Source of the DNA: a virus
Direction: 5' to 3' (one strand)
DNA: 33,174 nt
IMG/VR virus record: IMGVR_UViG_3300034120_002606
Coordinates: 1-33,174 of that record
Both the position numbers and the translations under genes were made by a program. Below are positions 7,008 to 30,168 of the stretch, one piece after another. A model generated the notes under the pieces. The model was given only the letters and a program-made list of their open reading frames with translations. It searched no databases and had not been told where the DNA came from. How positions within the stretch are numbered: the stretch's first letter is position 1; every line of letters starts with the position of its first letter.

Positions 7008-7045
7008 CGCAACGGGCGAGCGTCTCGGGACGCTCGCCTGTTGCG
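7008..7045 (+). promoter_or_regulatory. 17-bp hairpin between the decoration gene and the glycosyltransferase gene
   Basis: Bases 7008-7024 pair with 7029-7045 (one G.T pair) around the loop TCGG. No T run follows; the GGAGG of the next gene (7049-7053) starts four bases later. The stem is close enough to affect ribosome access, or it may be a processing/stability element. Confidence 0.55.
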
Positions 7046-7061
7046 CGTGGAGGAAACAGGG

Positions 7062-8162
7062 ATGCCTTTCGAGATTTCGGCGGACGGGAAGTCAAGCAAG
7101 CTGGCAGGACAGGACGAGCTCGCGAAGCTCGCGGATCGGTCGCTCGACTCGATCGAGGCTCGGGACGAAGTCATCCGATATCCGGGCGGGACCGCGGTCG
7201 ACGCGGTCAGGCTCTGGGCGTCGAAGCTCCGTACGAACGGGGAGCTCCGGATCTCGGTCCCGGACTTCGACAGGATCGTGGATGCCTACCGGAACGGGAC
7301 CGCTCCCGACGTCGAGAGGCGACTCCTCGGAGCCTCGGGAGAGCATGCCTCGATATGGAACCGAGGGAAGCTTACGGAGCTCGCTCGCGCGGCGGGTCTC
7401 GAAGAGGTCGCGAACTGGACGAGCGGACCGGACGAGCTTCACCTCGGGGTTCGAGGACTGAAGGTCGAGCCGATCGAGGCTCTTCCGAACGTCGAAGCTC
7501 TTATCTCGATGCCTCGTCTCGCTTGGACGGAGAACATGTTCTGCTCTTTCGGAGCTCTCCTCCCGCTCCGAATCAACCTTACGAAGCACACCGGAGCGTT
7601 CTGGGGCCAATGCCTCGAACGTCTGATGGAGGACGCGATCGCGAAGCCCTCCTGCGAATGGATCCTGACCGTCGATTACGACTCGATATTCAACCGAGAC
7701 GACGTCGTCTCCCTGTACCGTCTCGCGGTTCGGAAGAACCTCGACGCGGTCGCGGCGATGCAGGTAGGTCGAGAACGGCAGACCGTACTCATCACCTGCA
7801 ACGACGATAAGGGAGAGCCGCGAACGAACCTGACGGTGGAGGAGATCGAGAGCGAGGCTCTTCAAGTAGCCACCGCGCACTTCGGAATGACCCTCATCCG
7901 TACGTCCGCGATCCGCGATCTCCCGAAACCTTGGTTCTGCGGTCGACCCGCTCCCGACGGGAGCTGGCGCGACGGACGGGTCGACGACGACATCCATTTC
8001 TGGAAGCAGTTCGCCGCGGCGGGACGGAAGGTCTGGCAGGCGAATCGAGTCCGGATCGGACATATGCAGGTCGTCGTCTCGTGGCCGGACGCGAGGCTCG
8101 CCGCGCGGCACCAGTATCATTCCGAGTACGTCTCGAACGGAAAGCCCGATTGGGCGAGGTGA
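7062..8162 (+). CDS. Fusion of a degenerate methyltransferase-like domain and a GT-A glycosyltransferase-like domain
   Basis: The protein has 366 residues; ATG 7062 follows GGAGG at 7049-7053, so the in-frame TTG at 7041 is unlikely to be the start. Residues about 25-130 match the second half of class I SAM methyltransferases (GELRISVPDFDRIV at 60-73, then a C-terminal helix/strand pattern), but the glycine-rich SAM-binding half is missing, so this part is probably non-catalytic. Residues about 143-366 look like a GT-A glycosyltransferase: ALISMPR start, WILTVDYDSIF with the metal-binding DxD at 205-207, then VDDDIHFWKQFAAAG and a conserved-looking GHMQVVV. Lying between head genes, it may add sugar to virion proteins; that is inference. 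Confidence 0.65.
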   Translation: MPFEISADGKSSKLAGQDELAKLADRSLDSIEARDEVIRYPGGTAVDAVRLWASKLRTNGELRISVPDFDRIVDAYRNGTAPDVERRLLGASGEHASIWNRGKLTELARAAGLEEVANWTSGPDELHLGVRGLKVEPIEALPNVEALISMPRLAWTENMFCSFGALLPLRINLTKHTGAFWGQCLERLMEDAIAKPSCEWILTVDYDSIFNRDDVVSLYRLAVRKNLDAVAAMQVGRERQTVLITCNDDKGEPRTNLTVEEIESEALQVATAHFGMTLIRTSAIRDLPKPWFCGRPAPDGSWRDGRVDDDIHFWKQFAAAGRKVWQANRVRIGHMQVVVSWPDARLAARHQYHSEYVSNGKPDWAR

Positions 8163-16666: not shown

Positions 16667-18094
16667 ATGGCGGTCGTACTAACGGGAAACGGCGGTCTCT
16701 TTACTCGGCTCGGGAAGCTGTTCGGACTCGCGAAGACGATCCGCCAGCACCAGCAGGCTATCGCTCCGACGAGCTCGACCGCGACGACGGGAGTACGAGC
16801 CGTCCTCTCCGCGTACTCGTCGACCGCGGGAACGATCCCCATCGCGACCGAGCAGGTACGCTCGATCGCGGACGAGGATCTCGTCGCGCTCCCAAGTCTC
16901 TCGACGCTCGAAGCGATTCGGCAGGCGGCTGCTCGTACGCTCATCGAGACGGTCGACGCGGACTCTCCGCTCCCGTCGAAGACCGTCGACGACGCTCTCC
17001 GGGAGCTCGCCGCGCAGCTGGTCGCGAGCTCTGACTCCGTCGAGCGTACGACGTTCACGGTGGCGAGCCCGTCGTACGCGAGCTCGAACGTCGGGAACGC
17101 GGTCGTGGTCGTCTCCTGCGAATGTACGAAGCTCATCAAGGACCGCGTGGTCTTCTCCTCGAAGCTCGTCGATTTCCCCTGCGTACGAACCGAGACCCTA
17201 ACCTTCGTCTGCCAGACCGATACGAAGACGGGCGGTACTCGTAGCGGATCCGAGATATGGCACGTCGAAGGCGAGCGGTCGTATCCGAACCTCGATCGGA
17301 GATGGAGGTCCGGGTCCGGAGCGAAGCTTCGGGTGACCGCGACGAGCTCGTCGATGGACGGAAAGGTCGGAGCGAATCCCGGAGACAATCTCCTGACCAA
17401 TTCGGACTTCGAGAGCTTCGCCTCGAACGTCCCGGTTCAATGGTCTCTGGCGGTCGGGACCGCGGGGACGCACGTCTCTTCGGCGTCGACGAAGTTCCGC
17501 GGGACTACCGCTCTCGCGATTACCGGCGACGGCTCGAATCTCACGAAGCTGAAGCAGCGGTTCGCCCATCCCGACGGTACGAACTCCCGGGTTCGCGGCG
17601 ATACCCTGTACCACCTATCGTTCTGGATCCGCAACGACGGGACCGCTCCCGCGGGCGGGGTACTTCAGGTCTCGGTTCAGGACTCCGCGGGGAACGTACT
17701 CGGGTCGAGTATGTTCGTGACCGTTACGCTCTCCGCGACGACGTCGAGCTACGCTCGACAATCCGTCTCGGTCGTATCGCCCATCGACATCCCGGACGAG
17801 ACGTACCTCGTGGTCGAGCTGACCACCGCTCTCTCGAACGGTCGGAGCGTATACGTCGACGATATCGTCCTGACCGCTATGACCCGTCTCGCTCCGGGAG
17901 GTCCCGCGGTCGCGATCCTCCCCGGTAGCACCGATTCGAGGAGAGGCGATCTCGCGACGGTCGCGATCTCCGCCAACGCGGTCGGGCAGTTCAACCTCGA
18001 ACTGGATCGTTTCTTCGGTCTGTACGAAAGCGGAATCGTTCTCCCCTCCGCGTCCTCGACTTCGGCGACGATCTCGGATAGCCTCATCTCCTAG
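16667..18094 (+). CDS. Probable tail fibre / receptor-binding protein with a carbohydrate-binding-like region
   Basis: A 475-residue protein. Residues 1-45 (VVLTGNGGLFTRLGKLFGLA) are an N-terminal segment I associate with virion proteins of related phages. Residues about 60-140 are helical. The central part holds a beta module opening NLLTNSDFESF, then VPVQWSL and LSFWIRNDGTAP and, later, SNGRSVYVDDIVLTA, which is the layout of a jelly-roll carbohydrate-binding module (CBM 4/9-like). An adhesin that binds surface sugar is the best inference. It begins with AGGA seven bases before ATG and is the last gene before a strong terminator. Confidence 0.55.
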   Translation: MAVVLTGNGGLFTRLGKLFGLAKTIRQHQQAIAPTSSTATTGVRAVLSAYSSTAGTIPIATEQVRSIADEDLVALPSLSTLEAIRQAAARTLIETVDADSPLPSKTVDDALRELAAQLVASSDSVERTTFTVASPSYASSNVGNAVVVVSCECTKLIKDRVVFSSKLVDFPCVRTETLTFVCQTDTKTGGTRSGSEIWHVEGERSYPNLDRRWRSGSGAKLRVTATSSSMDGKVGANPGDNLLTNSDFESFASNVPVQWSLAVGTAGTHVSSASTKFRGTTALAITGDGSNLTKLKQRFAHPDGTNSRVRGDTLYHLSFWIRNDGTAPAGGVLQVSVQDSAGNVLGSSMFVTVTLSATTSSYARQSVSVVSPIDIPDETYLVVELTTALSNGRSVYVDDIVLTAMTRLAPGGPAVAILPGSTDSRRGDLATVAISANAVGQFNLELDRFFGLYESGIVLPSASSTSATISDSLIS

Positions 18095-18124
18095 CCGGGT
18101 CTTCATCCCCCGGTCTCCTAGTAG

Positions 18125-18160
18125 CGCCCGCCTCCGGAGCCGGAGGCGGGCGTTCTGTTT
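18125..18160 (+). terminator. Rho-independent terminator closing the head-tail operon
   Basis: A perfect 12-bp GC-rich stem (18125-18136 with 18141-18152), loop GAGC, followed by the T-rich tail TTCTGTTT. It lies 31 bases after the stop of the tail fibre gene and is the best intrinsic terminator in the window. Confidence 0.85.
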
Positions 18161-18382: not shown

Positions 18383-18440
18383 GAAAGTACCGCGAAAGTA
18401 CCGTAGAAGACTGGCAGAAGGGTAGAAGGCGGGGTATAGT
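18383..18440 (+). promoter_or_regulatory. Early promoter P1 with upstream direct repeat
   Basis: -35 CTGGCA (18411-18416), spacer of exactly 18, -10 TATAGT (18435-18440). Upstream are two direct copies of GAAAGTACCG (18383-18392 and 18394-18403), 11 bases apart, the nearer starting 17 bases before the -35. The same layout recurs at P2 and P3, so the repeats probably bind a shared activator or repressor. Confidence 0.8.
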
Positions 18441-18446
18441 CTTCGA

Positions 18447-18476
18447 GTCGAGCGATGGTGCTCGACCTACTAGGAG
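18447..18476 (+). promoter_or_regulatory. 5' leader hairpin and ribosome site (P1)
   Basis: GTCGAGC (18447-18453) pairs with GCTCGAC (18460-18466) around GATGGT, then CTACT leads to AGGAG (18472-18476), eight bases before ATG 18485. The hairpin would sit near the 5' end of the mRNA and could block decay. The ATG in the loop is in frame with the gene but lacks a ribosome site. Confidence 0.7.
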
Positions 18477-18484
18477 CCCGACCG

Positions 18485-18817
18485 ATGAATACCGCCTCTC
18501 TCGAAACCGTCCGCTACGCCCTTCACGTCTCGTACTCCGACGTCGCCTGCTACGAGATCGTCCGAACGGTCTCCGAGAAGACCGTCGAGGTCCGCCGGAT
18601 GAACGCGATCCCCGACCCGAGCTGGCGTCCGGCGGTCTCCGTCGGAGGGTTCGCCGGACACGTCTCGAACGATCGCGAGCGGACCTACACCTTCGAGTCG
18701 AGCCCGGAGCATCCGATCGTCCGTATCCGCCTCGGGAAGCGGGGATGGAAGTCCGCGAGCGGATGCAACTTCGTCCTCTCGACCGAGCCGCGCGAGTTCT
18801 ACGACAGCAACTTCTGA
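18485..18817 (+). CDS. Early accessory protein of a small phage family, function unknown
   Basis: A 110-residue protein. Start ATG 18485 is set by AGGAG at 18472-18476. Its pattern (DVACYEIVRTVSEKTVEVRR, then VGGFAGHVSNDRERTYTFES, then IRLGKRGWKS and a final EPREFYDSNF) matches a widespread small phage protein in which a 'y.v...s.ktv.v.r..a' strand pair is followed by a W/G strand and a 'yyDp.F' end. No biochemical role is known to me. It is the first gene under P1, so it is likely expressed early. A related protein is encoded next. Confidence 0.55.
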   Translation: MNTASLETVRYALHVSYSDVACYEIVRTVSEKTVEVRRMNAIPDPSWRPAVSVGGFAGHVSNDRERTYTFESSPEHPIVRIRLGKRGWKSASGCNFVLSTEPREFYDSNF

Positions 18818-18836
18818 CCGCTCGCCCGGTCCGGAC

Positions 18837-18866
18837 GGGGAAACCCGTCCGGACCGATTCCGCCGG
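18837..18866 (+). promoter_or_regulatory. 13-bp intercistronic hairpin with GAAA tetraloop
   Basis: Bases 18837-18849 pair perfectly with 18854-18866 around GAAA, 20 bases after the preceding stop. No T run follows. Either a weak terminator or an mRNA stability/processing element. Confidence 0.6.
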
Positions 18867-18871
18867 AGGAG

Positions 18872-18898
18872 CGTCCTCCGGCTCGAACCAGCTAGGAG
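18872..18898 (+). promoter_or_regulatory. Second leader hairpin and ribosome site, repeated before the next gene
   Basis: GCCGGAGGA (18872-18880) pairs with TCCTCCGGC (18884-18892), followed by CTCGAAC and a TAGGAG ribosome site. A closely similar element (19565-19606) precedes the next gene, so it is a recurrent leader cassette different from the P1-P3 type. Confidence 0.6.
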
Positions 18899-18905
18899 AC
18901 CTGCG

Positions 18906-19523
18906 ATGAAGACGAAGAGGACCGTACGGGAAGAGGTCGAATGGGTGGCGATCGCCATCGACGAACACGGGGACGCGATCGAGAGCGATCTGTTCGACTC
19001 CTACGAGGACGCTTCGAGACACGCGATCGAGATGATCCAGAGCAGACCGAGCCGCGGTATCAGAGCCTCGGTCGTCGAGCGAATCACGCGGACCGTCGAG
19101 GGAGAAGAGCTCGTCGAGTATCCGGAGACGTTCGCGGTCTTCCCCGGATGCGCCTCCGCGATCGAGGCGGGAGGATGGAAGTCCGATCTCCCGTACGTCT
19201 CGCGGATCTCCCGGGAGACTCCGGACGCGAAGACCTGCTCGGTCCGAGCGTACGAGGTCCTCCGGTTCCGGAACCGGACTACGGTCGAGGTCCGGGCGAT
19301 GAAGGCTACGAGGATCCCCGGGAAATGGGAGACCTACTCGTGGAGCTCGCGAGGCGGTATCCGTCGAGAGCCGAAGCTCGACGAGCAGGTCTGGATCCAC
19401 GAGGTCGACGTCGAAGAGGACCATTTCGACATCCGCTATCGCGACGGGGCGTGGTACTTCGCGGGCGATTCCGAGCCGGTGGTCTGGACTCGGGATCCCG
19501 TCTCGCGACACGCGGAGTTCTGA
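18906..19523 (+). CDS. Early accessory protein, C-terminus related to the previous gene
   Basis: A 205-residue acidic protein. Residues 1-60 (EEVEWVAIAIDEHGDAIESD, then a helix) are unlike the previous protein. Residues about 110-205 carry the same layout: CSVRAYEVLRFRNRTTVEVR, MKATRIPGKWETYSW, then FDIRYRDGAWYFAGD and a final VSRHAEF. The two genes are therefore likely paralogs with a domain added to this one. Function unknown. Start ATG follows CTAGGAG with good spacing. The duplicated leader before it suggests joint duplication of leader and gene. Confidence 0.5.
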   Translation: MKTKRTVREEVEWVAIAIDEHGDAIESDLFDSYEDASRHAIEMIQSRPSRGIRASVVERITRTVEGEELVEYPETFAVFPGCASAIEAGGWKSDLPYVSRISRETPDAKTCSVRAYEVLRFRNRTTVEVRAMKATRIPGKWETYSWSSRGGIRREPKLDEQVWIHEVDVEEDHFDIRYRDGAWYFAGDSEPVVWTRDPVSRHAEF

Positions 19524-19530
19524 ACGATCC

Positions 19531-19560
19531 TCCCCGGGTCTCCGACAGGAGATCCGGGGA
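19531..19560 (+). promoter_or_regulatory. 13-bp intercistronic hairpin, counterpart of 18837-18866
   Basis: Bases 19531-19543 pair with 19548-19560 (one G.T pair) around GACA, eight bases after the stop. Same position and stem length as the hairpin after the previous gene, with different sequence, so the structure rather than the sequence may be kept. Confidence 0.6.
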
Positions 19561-19564
19561 CTTT

Positions 19565-19606
19565 GCCGGAGGTACGTCCTTCGGCTCGAACTTCTGGGAT
19601 ACCTCG
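19565..19606 (+). promoter_or_regulatory. Second leader hairpin, repeated copy
   Basis: GCCGGAGG (19565-19572) pairs with CCTTCGGC (19578-19585), followed by CTCGAAC and GGGATACCTCGCG just before ATG 19609. Much of it matches the copy at 18872 base for base. The ribosome site here is weaker (CTGGGAT in place of CTAGGAG). Confidence 0.6.
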
Positions 19607-19608
19607 CG

Positions 19609-20187
19609 ATGAAATCGCACCAACACCGAAGCATCTCGCTCGCGCTCGACGTCGTCGGGAAGAGTCCGCTCGCGGTCGAGCCGGAGCTCGCGGAGCCTCC
19701 GTTCGCGTGGTTCCCCTACGACCCGGCGGACCGGACTCCGGGACTGGCTCGCTCCGAGTCGACGTACGAGCTCGCGATCGGTCGAGCGGACGGGAGCCTC
19801 GAAGAGATCGAGGACGCGGGAACGATCGGAGACCGAGACGAGGCGCTCTGTCTCGCGGTCGAGATCGCTCGCGAGCTCGAAGAGGGAGCGACGGTCCTCG
19901 TCCTCCCGTACCAGTTCGGGAGCTTCTCGCTCGACGGGTTCGCGAGGCTCGAACCGATCGCGGGAGGAGACGTTCTCCTGACCGAGCTCCGCGAGGACCC
20001 CGGGAGCGACGGCTCGACGACGGATCCGCGACGGCTCGACGACGGAGCCGCGACGGGTTCGCGACGGGTCCCCGAGGTATCCGGGGTCTCCGGGTTCCTC
20101 CGGAGATCCTCGATCGTCCCGGGCTTCTGGGTCTCCCCGCGATCGGAAGGTACGGAGGAACCGAGACTTACGGAACGTCCGAAATAA
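19609..20187 (+). CDS. Early accessory protein of unknown function
   Basis: A 192-residue acidic protein. I do not recognise it. Residues about 20-45 are Pro/Ala-rich (EPELAEPPFAWFPYDPADR); about 48-120 look folded (YELAIGRADGSLEEIEDAG, EALCLAVEIARELEEGATVL, VLPYQFGSF); the rest is Arg/Gly/Ser-rich and probably disordered, and part of it is encoded by 22-bp tandem repeats (20008-20073). The tail may therefore be recently expanded DNA rather than conserved protein. Its stop lies eight bases before the P2 repeats. Confidence 0.45.
   Translation: MKSHQHRSISLALDVVGKSPLAVEPELAEPPFAWFPYDPADRTPGLARSESTYELAIGRADGSLEEIEDAGTIGDRDEALCLAVEIARELEEGATVLVLPYQFGSFSLDGFARLEPIAGGDVLLTELREDPGSDGSTTDPRRLDDGAATGSRRVPEVSGVSGFLRRSSIVPGFWVSPRSEGTEEPRLTERPK
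20008..20073 (+). repeat. Three tandem 22-bp repeats within the 19609 gene
   Basis: Units at 20008-20029 and 20030-20051 differ at one base; the third (20052-20073) is degenerate. Because 22 is not a multiple of three, each copy is read in a different frame, so the repeat acts at DNA level or arose by slippage rather than being a protein repeat. Confidence 0.75.
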
Positions 20188-20194
20188 CCTTCGG

Positions 20195-20251
20195 GAAATA
20201 CCTCGAAAGTACCGCGGAAGACTGGCAGAACCTCCCGACCCGAGGTATAGT
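20195..20251 (+). promoter_or_regulatory. Early promoter P2 with upstream direct repeat
   Basis: -35 CTGGCA (20222-20227), 18-base spacer, -10 TATAGT (20246-20251). Upstream copies are GAAATACCTC (20195-20204) and GAAAGTACCG (20205-20214), the latter 17 bases before the -35 as in P1 and P3. Confidence 0.8.
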
Positions 20252-20257
20252 CTCGAC

Positions 20258-20287
20258 GTCGAGCGATGGTGCTCGACCTACTAGGAG
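20258..20287 (+). promoter_or_regulatory. 5' leader hairpin and ribosome site (P2)
   Basis: GTCGAGC (20258-20264) pairs with GCTCGAC (20271-20277), loop GATGGT identical to P1, then CTACT and AGGAG (20283-20287), eight bases before ATG 20296. The loop ATG is again in frame with the gene. Confidence 0.7.
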
Positions 20288-20295
20288 ATCCACCG

Positions 20296-20547
20296 ATGAC
20301 CCGCCTCCCGCCGAAGCAGAACCCCGAGAAGCTCATCGCCGAAATCGCCGCGGAGTGTCTTCTCTTCCCGAGCCTGACCGAGACGAAGTCCGGAGCGGAC
20401 TTCCGCGAGGTCGCGGTCTGGACCGTCCGCGAGGCTCTTCTCGCCGCGTTCGCCGCGGGCGCTCGCGAGCTCGCGAACCGCTCGGATCCGATCCACCGGA
20501 ACCAGAGCCTCCGCAAGCATCTCGCCGATATCGAGACCGGTCGATAA
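20296..20547 (+). CDS. Small early protein of unknown function
   Basis: An 83-residue, mainly helical protein (PEKLIAEIAAECLLFPSLTE, then FREVAVWTVREALLAAFAAG, then a basic end). It has no recognised motif and no membrane segment long enough to be sure. It is a single-gene unit between P2 and P3, with its own promoter and leader, so its timing or dose probably matters. Start chosen by AGGAG spacing rather than the upstream in-frame ATG at 20266. Confidence 0.5.
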   Translation: MTRLPPKQNPEKLIAEIAAECLLFPSLTETKSGADFREVAVWTVREALLAAFAAGARELANRSDPIHRNQSLRKHLADIETGR

Positions 20548-20559
20548 CGGACGAGGAAG

Positions 20560-20616
20560 GAAATCCGAAGAAAGTACCGTAGAAGACTGGCAGAACGAAC
20601 CGAAGCAGGGTAGGGT
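20560..20616 (+). promoter_or_regulatory. Early promoter P3 with upstream repeat
   Basis: -35 CTGGCA (20587-20592), 18-base spacer, -10 TAGGGT (20611-20616, weaker than P1/P2). GAAAGTACCG lies at 20570-20579, 17 bases before the -35; the outer copy is degenerate (GAAATCCGAA, 20560-20569). Confidence 0.75.
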
Positions 20617-20625
20617 ACGCAGACC

Positions 20626-20654
20626 GTCGAGCGAGGAGCTCGACCTACTAGGAG
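20626..20654 (+). promoter_or_regulatory. 5' leader hairpin and ribosome site (P3)
   Basis: GTCGAGC (20626-20632) pairs with GCTCGAC (20638-20644) around GAGGA, then CTACT and AGGAG (20650-20654), eight bases before ATG 20663. The stem is identical to P1 and P2 but the loop differs and has no ATG. Confidence 0.7.
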
Positions 20655-20662
20655 ACAAGTCG

Positions 20663-21217
20663 ATGAAGACCCAGAACAGCTACAACGTCGGAGACCGCGT
20701 TCGGATCCAAGTCCCCGGGAACTCGACCGTATACCGCGGGACGGTCGCTCGAATCGTTCAGCAGGACGGTCGAGCCGGAGGAGTCTTCGAGATCGCCCTG
20801 ACGGACGGGAACCGCTTCGAGGACGGAGCGGACCTCGTCGCCGGAGACTGGATGACCCGGGAGCCGGAGGTTCCCGCCTGCTATCCGGTCACCCGGAATC
20901 TCGTCGAGCGGTTCCGGAGCGAGTTCGCGTATCACGCCTCGGACTCGAACCTCCCGAGCGGGGAGCGACGAGCCCATCTCCTCGGGTTCCTTTCCGGTCT
21001 CGCGATCTCCGCGATGGCTGCGGCGGAGACCGAGGACTTCCGGATCGCGGATCCGCAGCTCTGCCGCGAGGTCTTCAACGATCTCGGGGAGATGTACGAC
21101 CCTTCGCGGAACCCGTTCCTCCCGCGTCCCGCTCGCGACGAGCAGCTCCTCGGAGAGCTCCGTCGGATCGCTCTCGCCTCGACTCCTACGGGAAGGCTCT
21201 GCGATGAGCGCGCCTGA
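20663..21217 (+). CDS. Early protein with an SH3/KOW-like start, function unknown
   Basis: A 184-residue protein. Residues 7-35 (YNVGDRVRIQVPGNSTVYRG and VARIV) look like a small SH3/KOW-type barrel that could bind nucleic acid or protein. Residues 75-184 are helical, including LVERFRSEFAYHASDSNLP, GFLSGLAISAMAAAE and LLGELRRIALAS. It is first in the P3 operon leading into the recombination genes. It overlaps the following small membrane-protein frame by 14 bases. No catalytic motif seen. Confidence 0.5.
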   Translation: MKTQNSYNVGDRVRIQVPGNSTVYRGTVARIVQQDGRAGGVFEIALTDGNRFEDGADLVAGDWMTREPEVPACYPVTRNLVERFRSEFAYHASDSNLPSGERRAHLLGFLSGLAISAMAAAETEDFRIADPQLCREVFNDLGEMYDPSRNPFLPRPARDEQLLGELRRIALASTPTGRLCDERA

Positions 21218-21335
21218 AATCGCCCTGACCATCGGAGGGAGCTGCGTAGCTCTCTTCGCGATCCTACTCCCCTTCTGCGTCGAATCCGGTCGACGTAGCG
21301 GGATCGTCCGAACCGGATACGGAGACAAGCGATGA
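21204..21335 (+). CDS. Small single-pass membrane protein
   Basis: A 43-residue frame whose ATG lies inside the end of the previous gene and whose stop overlaps the ERF start (ATGA). The middle (IALTIGGSCVALFAILLPFC) is a clear membrane segment, followed by a basic cytosolic-type tail (ESGRRSGIVRTGYGDKR). Coupling by overlaps on both sides is this genome's normal gene layout, which supports it being real. Function is unknown; small membrane proteins in early operons sometimes act in superinfection exclusion. Confidence 0.55.
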   Translation: MSAPEIALTIGGSCVALFAILLPFCVESGRRSGIVRTGYGDKR

Positions 21336-23015: not shown

Positions 23016-23065
23016 ACGGTCCCGGTACGTCGCTCGCGGATGTACCGGGACCGTTCTACTAGGAG
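23016..23065 (+). promoter_or_regulatory. 13-bp leader hairpin and ribosome site before the replication gene
   Basis: Bases 23016-23028 pair perfectly with 23042-23054 around a 13-base loop. CTACT and AGGAG (23061-23065) follow, eight bases before ATG 23073, the same CTACTAGGAGACA start region used by the P3 gene. No -35/-10 pair is evident within this gap. Confidence 0.65.
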
Positions 23066-28614: not shown

Positions 28615-30168
28615 ATGCCTCTTCAGTTCCGACGGGGAACCGATTCCCAACGCTCGACGGTTACGCCCGCGGCGGGCGAACCGCTCTGGATTACGGATAC
28701 CCAGAAGCTCTACATCGGGGACGGGACCTCGACCGGCGGGATCGAGGTCTCCGGAGGCGGATCGGGCGGAGCTCCTACGAACGCTTCGTACATCGTCCTA
28801 GGGACGAACGCGAGCCTCTCCGCCGAGCGAGCTCTCTCGATCGGGACCGGGCTCGCCTCGACCGATGGCGGAGCCGGAGGGACGCTCTCGCTCGCTCTCG
28901 GAACCCATACCCATTCTGCTTCCGAGATCGCGACCGGGACGCTCGCTCTCGCTCGCGGCGGTCTCGCCGCGGATATCTCCGGATTCGGTCCGGGCTTCCT
29001 TCGGCAGACCGCTCTCGGAGCCGCGGTATCCGTCTCGGCGATCGTCGCGACCGATCTCCCGACCCACAACCACGTCGCCTCGAACATTACGAGCGGGACG
29101 CTCGCGCTCTCGGTCGGAGGTCTCGCCGCGGACCTATCCGCGACCGGAGGCTCGGGTCGATTCCTCAAGCAGACCGCGGCGGGAGCGGCGGTCTCCGTCT
29201 CCGTCGTAGCCGCGACCGAGCTGGCTACGAGCGGTACGCCCGGGACGGATACCTACCTCCGAGGCGACCTCACGTGGGGTACGCCTCCCGGCGGTAGCGG
29301 CGGAGCTCCTACGGACGCCTCGTACGTCGTCCTCGGGACGAACGCGACGCTGACGTCCGAGCGGGTCCTGACCATCGGGACCGGACTAGCCTCGACGGAC
29401 GCGGGAGCGGGCGGGAACCTCACGATCGCTCTCGGGACCCATACCCATTCTGCGGGCGATATCCAAGCGGGTACGCTCGCGGTCGCTCGCGGCGGTCTCG
29501 CGGCGGACCTCTCGACGACCGGAGGGACCGCGCAGTTCCTCAAGCAGACCGCGGTCGGAGGATCCGTCTCGGTAGGGACCATCGCCGCGACCGAGGTCGG
29601 GACGTCCGGAACCGCGAGCACATCGACCTTCCTTCGAGGCGACATGACGTGGTCGACCCCGAGCGGGACCGGCGGAGGGACGAAGACGTACGCCCGCTTC
29701 ACCCCGCTCGACAATCAGCCGACGACGTCCGCGTACGCGACCTTCGACACGCGGAACGGGATCGCGGTCCTCGACTACGACGCGACCGCTCTCGAATCGG
29801 GAGTCTTCGTCTCCGTACTTCCCGAGGCGGCGGTTACTACGGACGGACTCAAGGTCCGGCTCTTCTGGACTCCGTCGACGTCGACGACGACGAACGCGGT
29901 CGTATGGGGAGCCTCGATCCAAAGGATCGACACCGCGACGGACCTCGACGTCGACTCTTTCGGATCGACCGTAACCGCGAGCGGATCCGCGAGCGGGACC
30001 GCGGGCGTACCGACCATCGTCGAGATCACGATGACCGGGACCTCCGCTCTCGATTCGCTCGTCGCCGGAGACGCCTTCCGCCTCAAAATCTCCCGCGACG
30101 GGACCGCGGTCGCGGACGACCTAGCCGACGACGCTGAGCTCGTCGCGGTAGAACTACGAGCAGTCTGA
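28615..30168 (+). CDS. Tail fibre protein with duplicated repeat modules
   Basis: A 517-residue fibre. Residues 1-45 (PLQFRRGTDSQRSTVTPAAG, EPLWITDTQKLYIGDGTSTG) are the small N-terminal repeat found on many phage fibres and tropism proteins. Residues about 45-350 are a Gly/Ser/Thr/Ala-rich shaft with repeated units, each holding SERALSIGTGLASTD, LGTHTHSA and GLAADLS; the His pair in THTHS may bind metal. Residues about 355-515 form a beta C-terminal domain (YARFTPLDNQPTTSAYATFD, VLPEAAVTTDGLKVRLFWTP). The whole shaft is duplicated once within the gene. Receptor binding is likely. Confidence 0.75.
   Translation: MPLQFRRGTDSQRSTVTPAAGEPLWITDTQKLYIGDGTSTGGIEVSGGGSGGAPTNASYIVLGTNASLSAERALSIGTGLASTDGGAGGTLSLALGTHTHSASEIATGTLALARGGLAADISGFGPGFLRQTALGAAVSVSAIVATDLPTHNHVASNITSGTLALSVGGLAADLSATGGSGRFLKQTAAGAAVSVSVVAATELATSGTPGTDTYLRGDLTWGTPPGGSGGAPTDASYVVLGTNATLTSERVLTIGTGLASTDAGAGGNLTIALGTHTHSAGDIQAGTLAVARGGLAADLSTTGGTAQFLKQTAVGGSVSVGTIAATEVGTSGTASTSTFLRGDMTWSTPSGTGGGTKTYARFTPLDNQPTTSAYATFDTRNGIAVLDYDATALESGVFVSVLPEAAVTTDGLKVRLFWTPSTSTTTNAVVWGASIQRIDTATDLDVDSFGSTVTASGSASGTAGVPTIVEITMTGTSALDSLVAGDAFRLKISRDGTAVADDLADDAELVAVELRAV

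Follow-up and report, generated by a model that had tools for sequence, protein, structure and literature searches.

Likely early promoters with a predicted 5'-terminal hairpin leader, and an intergenic tandem hairpin, in a phage genome from IMG/VR

Early-gene control is unknown for most uncultivated phages, and the question was raised for one of them by a unit that recurs three times between its late and early genes. The window, by which we mean the whole stretch of DNA that was analysed, is the IMG/VR virus record IMGVR_UViG_3300034120_002606 (33,174 bases, 64% GC). Its left side carries terminase, portal, capsid and connector genes, and beyond 18.1 kb lie genes for Erf, an HTH_17 protein, a Gp157/Gam-like protein, a replication-initiation-like protein, a PDDEXK nuclease and RusA. 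Three cassettes, P1 (18383-18487), P2 (20194-20298) and P3 (20559-20665), are located on the plus strand, 3' of the last late gene (which ends at 18094) and 5' of Erf (21332), and each consists of a repeat, a promoter, a hairpin and a ribosome-binding site. An earlier note on this DNA had called them phage early promoters, and their position after a probable late-gene terminator and upstream of the Erf and replication genes agrees with this, as does a sigma-70 promoter at the P1 position in six of eight relatives. Overall, the cassettes are likely to be early promoters. With a probability of about 0.62, they serve the host housekeeping RNA polymerase and are followed by a structured 5'-terminal hairpin leader before the Shine-Dalgarno (SD) sequence. 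The leader and the intergenic RNA elements are the most interesting part of the locus.

The recurring cassette described in the earlier note is real, and its shared parts are the block GAAAGTACCG, a promoter of the CTGGCA/18 bp/TATAGT type, a GTCGAGC...GCTCGAC hairpin and the ribosome-binding site CTACTAGGAG. Exact copies of GAAAGTACCG were found in the whole 33 kb only at 18383, 18394, 20205 and 20570, all four of them within the cassettes; with one mismatch allowed there were seven sites against 1.8 expected, a number reached by none of 100 shuffles. GAAAGTACCGNNGAAGACTGGCAGAA occurred three times, always on the plus strand, and its reversed control not at all. The P1 promoter (18411-18440) has the -35 hexamer CTGGCA, a spacer of 18 bp and the -10 hexamer TATAGT, and the P2 promoter (20222-20251) has the same three elements. 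In both, the hexamers match TTGACA/TATAAT at 9 of 12 positions and stand 18 bp apart, which makes them sigma-70-type. A consensus promoter scan of 17.9-24.0 kb returned these two only (2 against 0.2 expected), and both were also recovered with the descriptor given below. The P3 promoter (20587-20616; CTGGCA, 18 bp) was recognised by its sequence, having been missed by the consensus scans and the descriptor because its weak -10 is TAGGGT. A sigma-54 reading of CTGGCA was ruled out by eye, as there is no -12 TTGC at the right distance.

The spacing is constant in P1-P3, with 17 bp from repeat start to -35 start and 18 bp in the spacer. The box and the -35 are identical, whereas the spacers agree at 8-11 of 18 positions and the DNA further upstream at 3-10 of 28, so that the combination of fixed spacing and differing spacers first pointed out stands. 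Conserved islands between diverged spacers indicate that the islands are kept while the rest drifts; together with a separate two-copy promoter-like family in the relative G001, they bear out the suggestion of selection beyond recent copying. The outer copy of the repeat, one helical turn upstream, fared less well. Two exact copies of GAAAGTACCG 11 bp apart are present in P1 only (18383-18403). Counted by eye in the 11-bp register, the outer copy is degenerate in P2 (GGAAATACCT, 7 of 10, with the exact inner copy at 20205-20214; together 20194-20214) and weak in P3 (GGAAATCCGA, 5 of 10, inner copy at 20570-20579; together 20559-20579). The repeat position 18383 in the earlier note was therefore correct, but 20195 and 20560 are degenerate outer positions, the exact copies being at 20205 and 20570.

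Downstream of the P1 promoter, the leader hairpin GTCGAGC(GATGGT)GCTCGAC (18447-18466) begins 6 nt after the -10, at the predicted +1, and is followed by CTACTAGGAG and the ATG at 18485 (18467-18487) of a gene for 110 amino acids of unknown function. The same order is seen in P2 (20258-20298), where the hairpin (20258-20277) again starts 6 nt after the -10 and leads into CTACTAGGAG (20278-20287) and the ATG of a DUF6900 gene (20296). In P3 (20626-20665) the distance is 9 nt, the hairpin is GTCGAGC(GAGGA)GCTCGAC (20626-20644), and CTACTAGGAG (20645-20654) precedes the ATG at 20663, which opens a 184-amino-acid gene; a small membrane protein and Erf are encoded downstream of it. When the leaders were folded from the predicted +1 the hairpin formed, with the SD free in P1 and P3 and nearly so in P2. 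A descriptor consisting of sigma-70 hexamers, 4-9 nt, a hairpin of at least 6 bp and then GGAG..ATG had P1 and P2 as its only matches in the whole window, with none on the minus strand, and found no match in 10 first-order Markov shuffles. The leader was also considered as an intrinsic terminator and rejected, since no T run follows the hairpin. No Rfam family matched at its gathering score in the window.

Relatives were collected from IMG/VR with the portal protein, which gave 327, and with the last late gene (A1), which gave 17 loci, most at 57-62% identity and several ending before the P1 position. L109, L110 and L112 are distant (35%), and L004 and L005 are the same species as the window and add nothing. 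Eight relatives were readable at the P1 position (G001, G002, L099, L101, L102, L103, L105 and L108), and in each of them except G001 and L099 a single sigma-70 promoter is present, reading TTGACA (L101 scored TGCACA), 16 bp, and then TACCTT, TACCAT, TATCCT or TACATT. G001 carries a promoter-like unit of its own, TTTCCA-17-GATGAT, twice at comparable early positions, and a search for repeated motifs in L099 yielded no promoter family. The genes right after P1, P2 and P3 had no tblastn match in the relatives, and the cassette was not seen in the DUF6900 relatives L007 and L008. The only match among species genomes was the G002 contig, inside a metagenome-assembled genome named Coriobacteriia. 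This bin is weak host evidence, because the tandem-hairpin model described below found it in 1 of 298 genomes of that class and in no other.

One match to the descriptor was obtained in each of the six relatives with a sigma-70 promoter (G002, L101, L102, L103, L105 and L108), in every case immediately behind the last late gene. In all six the hairpin begins 6 nt past the -10 and its stem has the base GTCG...CGAC, while the upper stems differ. The 6 nt are found again in L163 and L164, which are identical there and have GTCGCC...GGCGAC. These two have no homologue of any of the 16 window early proteins that were tested; the leader hairpin and the tandem element lie at 10900-11440 in L163 and 940-1460 in L164. 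L164 also encodes a PurZ-like protein (below the curated cut-off) and a DNA polymerase I. Other GC-rich loci (1.62 Mb) gave 16 descriptor matches, of which eight were further copies of these phages and eight lay elsewhere and lacked this geometry. Among seven distinct leader hairpins three stem pairs are altered on both sides, and the covariation score was 0.286 against 0.151 in shuffles, with 5 of 500 as high, which is moderate support for the hairpin. Given these compensatory changes and a start fixed 6 nt after the -10, the shared leader hairpin is supported more strongly than when it was first claimed.

Several observations weigh against this reading. The descriptor was composed after the sequences had been seen, so its matches in close relatives are partly by construction, and the informative parts of the result are the constant 6 nt and the case of L163 and L164. 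G001 and L099 were not recovered by it. The leader covariation is modest, with 7 distinct rows, and two of five measures, including the number of pairs changed on both sides, were reached by 114 of 500 shuffles. Folding z-scores were weak (-1.0 for P1 and -1.4 for P2), a P1 fold that includes the 6 nt before the hairpin gave a competing structure, and P3 departs from the 6-nt rule and has a poor -10. A conserved box, TTTAGTRCNGC, is present once in the relatives, close to where the window has its repeat, and the matrix of that box ranks the window boxes at a genome-wide fraction of 0.006-0.03 per site, which is not significant after five offsets.

If the cassettes are early promoters with a hairpin leader, transcription directed by the -35 and -10 would begin around the 7th base past the -10. 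The predicted start in P1 and P2 is the first G of the hairpin, so that a stem-loop would form the very 5' end of the message; in P3 about 3 nt of message would precede the hairpin. The stem-loop would stand just 5' of an open stretch holding the SD sequence TAGGAG, where its most likely role is to protect the message from 5'-end-dependent decay and to leave the ribosome site open, so that early genes are expressed strongly. In E. coli a 5' hairpin impedes 5'-end conversion by RppH and stabilises mRNA (PMC3997798). An extra contact, with an activator or with the polymerase alpha subunit, is the most likely contribution of the GAAAGTACCG block, which precedes the weak -35 (CTGGCA) and in P1 is present twice at a distance of one helical turn. 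P1 would be the ancestral site, and P2 and P3 are probably added copies serving genes that lack homologues in the relatives, since the relatives are single-copy and gave no matches for the genes right after P1, P2 and P3. Confirmation would establish a compact leader for early expression. The fixed geometry of promoter, 6 nt, hairpin and SD, along with the covarying intergenic RNA, recurs in phages with diverged sites, and this offers concrete testable parts and a handle for finding further cases.

The earlier note had assigned the GAAAGTACCG direct repeats to a cooperative operator for a dimeric phage regulator, either the HTH_17 protein (22278) or the XRE-like protein (24417), which would make the three promoters one early regulon. 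In favour of this, the repeat is kept exactly beside the -35 of all three promoters, always at the same distance, and stands in tandem at 11 bp in P1; the single box in the relatives keeps nearly the same place, and HTH_17 is a confidently predicted DNA-binding protein related to excisionases. However, the outer copy is exact in P1 only, and similarity of the box between phages is weak. The HTH_17 protein is 56% identical to its homologue in G001, despite the different sequence upstream of the G001 promoters, and in those relatives whose box is more similar no HTH_17 match was obtained at E 1e-3, inspection by eye showing a more diverged version encoded there. The 24417 protein matches helix-turn-helix families below their cut-offs only, and no homologue was found in the relatives tested. 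With candidates that do not track the box, we regard a cooperative regulator and its operator here as unlikely.

A binding site may instead be sought in the RNA, with the leader hairpin acting as an operator for a phage or host translational regulator and not as a general protector of the 5' end. The hairpin does lie directly upstream of the SD, its stem base GTCG...CGAC hardly varies, and the loop GATGGT of P1 and P2 recurs in the second hairpin of the intergenic element of L101 and L102. Loops differ elsewhere, however, with GAGGA in P3, CCACCTG in G001 and AATTCC in L164, which argues against loop-specific binding and leaves this explanation quite improbable. Still less probable is the recent duplication of one promoter and ribosome-binding segment, accompanied by gene insertions, in which the repeat has no selected function. 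P1-P3 are indeed far closer to one another than to any relative, and the relatives have single copies, but copying by itself does not keep islands conserved between diverged spacers and upstream DNA. An early promoter with a 5'-terminal hairpin leader remains our preferred reading.

A second structured element, a tandem hairpin, directly adjoins the ribosome-binding sites of early genes on their upstream side. Its first hairpin pairs over 8 bp and then over 4 bp, usually with a 1x1 mismatch in between, and has a GNRA or GACA loop; after a linker of 4 nt come a second hairpin and the SD. Both window copies are on the plus strand, and the mismatch position is paired in each. E1 (18827-18882) has its first hairpin at 18827-18856 with a GAAA loop, the linker, and its second hairpin at 18862-18882, before the CTAGGAG site of the gene at 18906; E2 (19531-19585) has a first hairpin with a GACA loop and a second hairpin upstream of the gene at 19609. 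The element is also present in L093, L095, L096, L099, L101, L102, L103, L105, L163 and L164. In eight distinct sequences 99% of cells pair and 7 of 12 pairs are altered on both sides, and the covariation score of 0.491 against 0.133 was reached by none of 500 shuffles.

The tandem-hairpin model was limited to these eight sequences because aligning all of them misaligned two members; the rest were counted without gaps. In 1.1 Mb of loci it recovered its own members and L103, others being borderline, and it did not recover E2 of the window, the second copy of L099 or one copy in G001. L163 and L164, where the tandem element and the leader hairpin co-occur, scored 57 bits. These two loci had been found with a DNA pattern derived from the tandem element, so that the match of the first hairpin is expected; the leader alongside lies outside that pattern. 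A distant search of GenBank phages with the tandem hairpin gave four weak matches. We tentatively suggest, as something that could well be otherwise, that the +1 hairpin with its GTCG...CGAC base and the intergenic tandem hairpin form an exchangeable expression module of otherwise different phages, the tandem part separating early genes and setting mRNA processing or translation. Of everything in the locus, the tandem element is perhaps the most novel and, if this is true, would represent a new structured RNA family of phages.

A DNA search with 17.8-21.2 kb found no nucleotide relative among GenBank phages. Upstream of P1 and 3' of the last late gene, an intrinsic-terminator-like hairpin was located on the plus strand (18123-18154); terminator-like matches overall were at chance level, and this one is supported by its position. 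An exact CTACTAGGAG is present on the minus strand just before it (18115-18124), and a hairpin, AAGTCCCGG-TTTCT-CCGGGACTT, lies immediately upstream of P1 (18344-18366). Directly before Erf is a gene for a probable membrane protein of 42 amino acids (21204-21334), with relatives of 37-50% identity in G001, G002, L101, L102, L105 and L108. A 15-bp hairpin followed by CTACTAGGAG (23017-23065, plus strand) precedes the replication-initiation-like gene (23073), and by inspection G001, L101, L102 and L108 have long hairpins of other sequence in the same place. A 17-bp hairpin with a TCGG loop (7020-7062) is found just before a GGAG start, with a similar hairpin near 21.4 kb in G001. The protein encoded at 28615-30168 has an Mtd_N domain (major tropism determinant), and its gene contains a 224-nt direct repeat of 79% identity; that encoded at 31845-32969 matches both ParB-like and DNA methyltransferase families.

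The layout of the locus resembles arrangements of some other phages, and the cassettes are a variant of known promoter and leader kinds. Cluster K mycobacteriophages have intergenic SigA-like promoter units, the extended start-associated sequences (ESAS; seven in Adephagia), upstream of start-associated sequences (SAS). The ESAS, a conserved unit of 46-47 bp whose SigA-like hexamers are separated by 17-18 bp, lies in the non-structural genome half, and SAS conservation reaches beyond the ribosome-binding site (PMC3203893, PMC11373665). Like these, the window has several intergenic copies of a promoter unit, and the start context TAGGAG or GGAGAYRACCGATG recurs before early genes. Unlike the ESAS, with its imperfect inverted repeat of 15-17 bp, the cassettes by inspection have direct repeats upstream of the -35 and a 7-bp inverted repeat downstream of the -10, and unlike the SAS (consensus GGGATAGGAGCCC) the three cassette starts consist of CTACTAGGAG and then variable bases. 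Because two defining sequence features fail, the cassettes are not members of the cluster K ESAS/SAS. Promoters of the Pho-box type have 11-bp direct-repeat activator sites next to the -35. P1 is similar in that its poor -35 is adjoined by direct repeats at an 11-bp interval; in contrast to that type, the proteins tested yielded no activator of this sort, and P2 and P3 have a degenerate outer repeat. The leader of T7 gene 10 is one of the known 5'-terminal stem-loop leaders. E. coli provides others (PMC3997798), and the cassettes are like them in having, shortly before the ribosome-binding site, a hairpin at or near the predicted 5' end. The hairpin stands 6 nt after the -10 in P1, P2 and every recovered relative and 9 nt after it in P3, and the folded P1-P3 leaders leave the SD free or nearly so. 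What the present leaders add to these examples is a GTCG...CGAC base and a 6-nt distance that recur in different phages.

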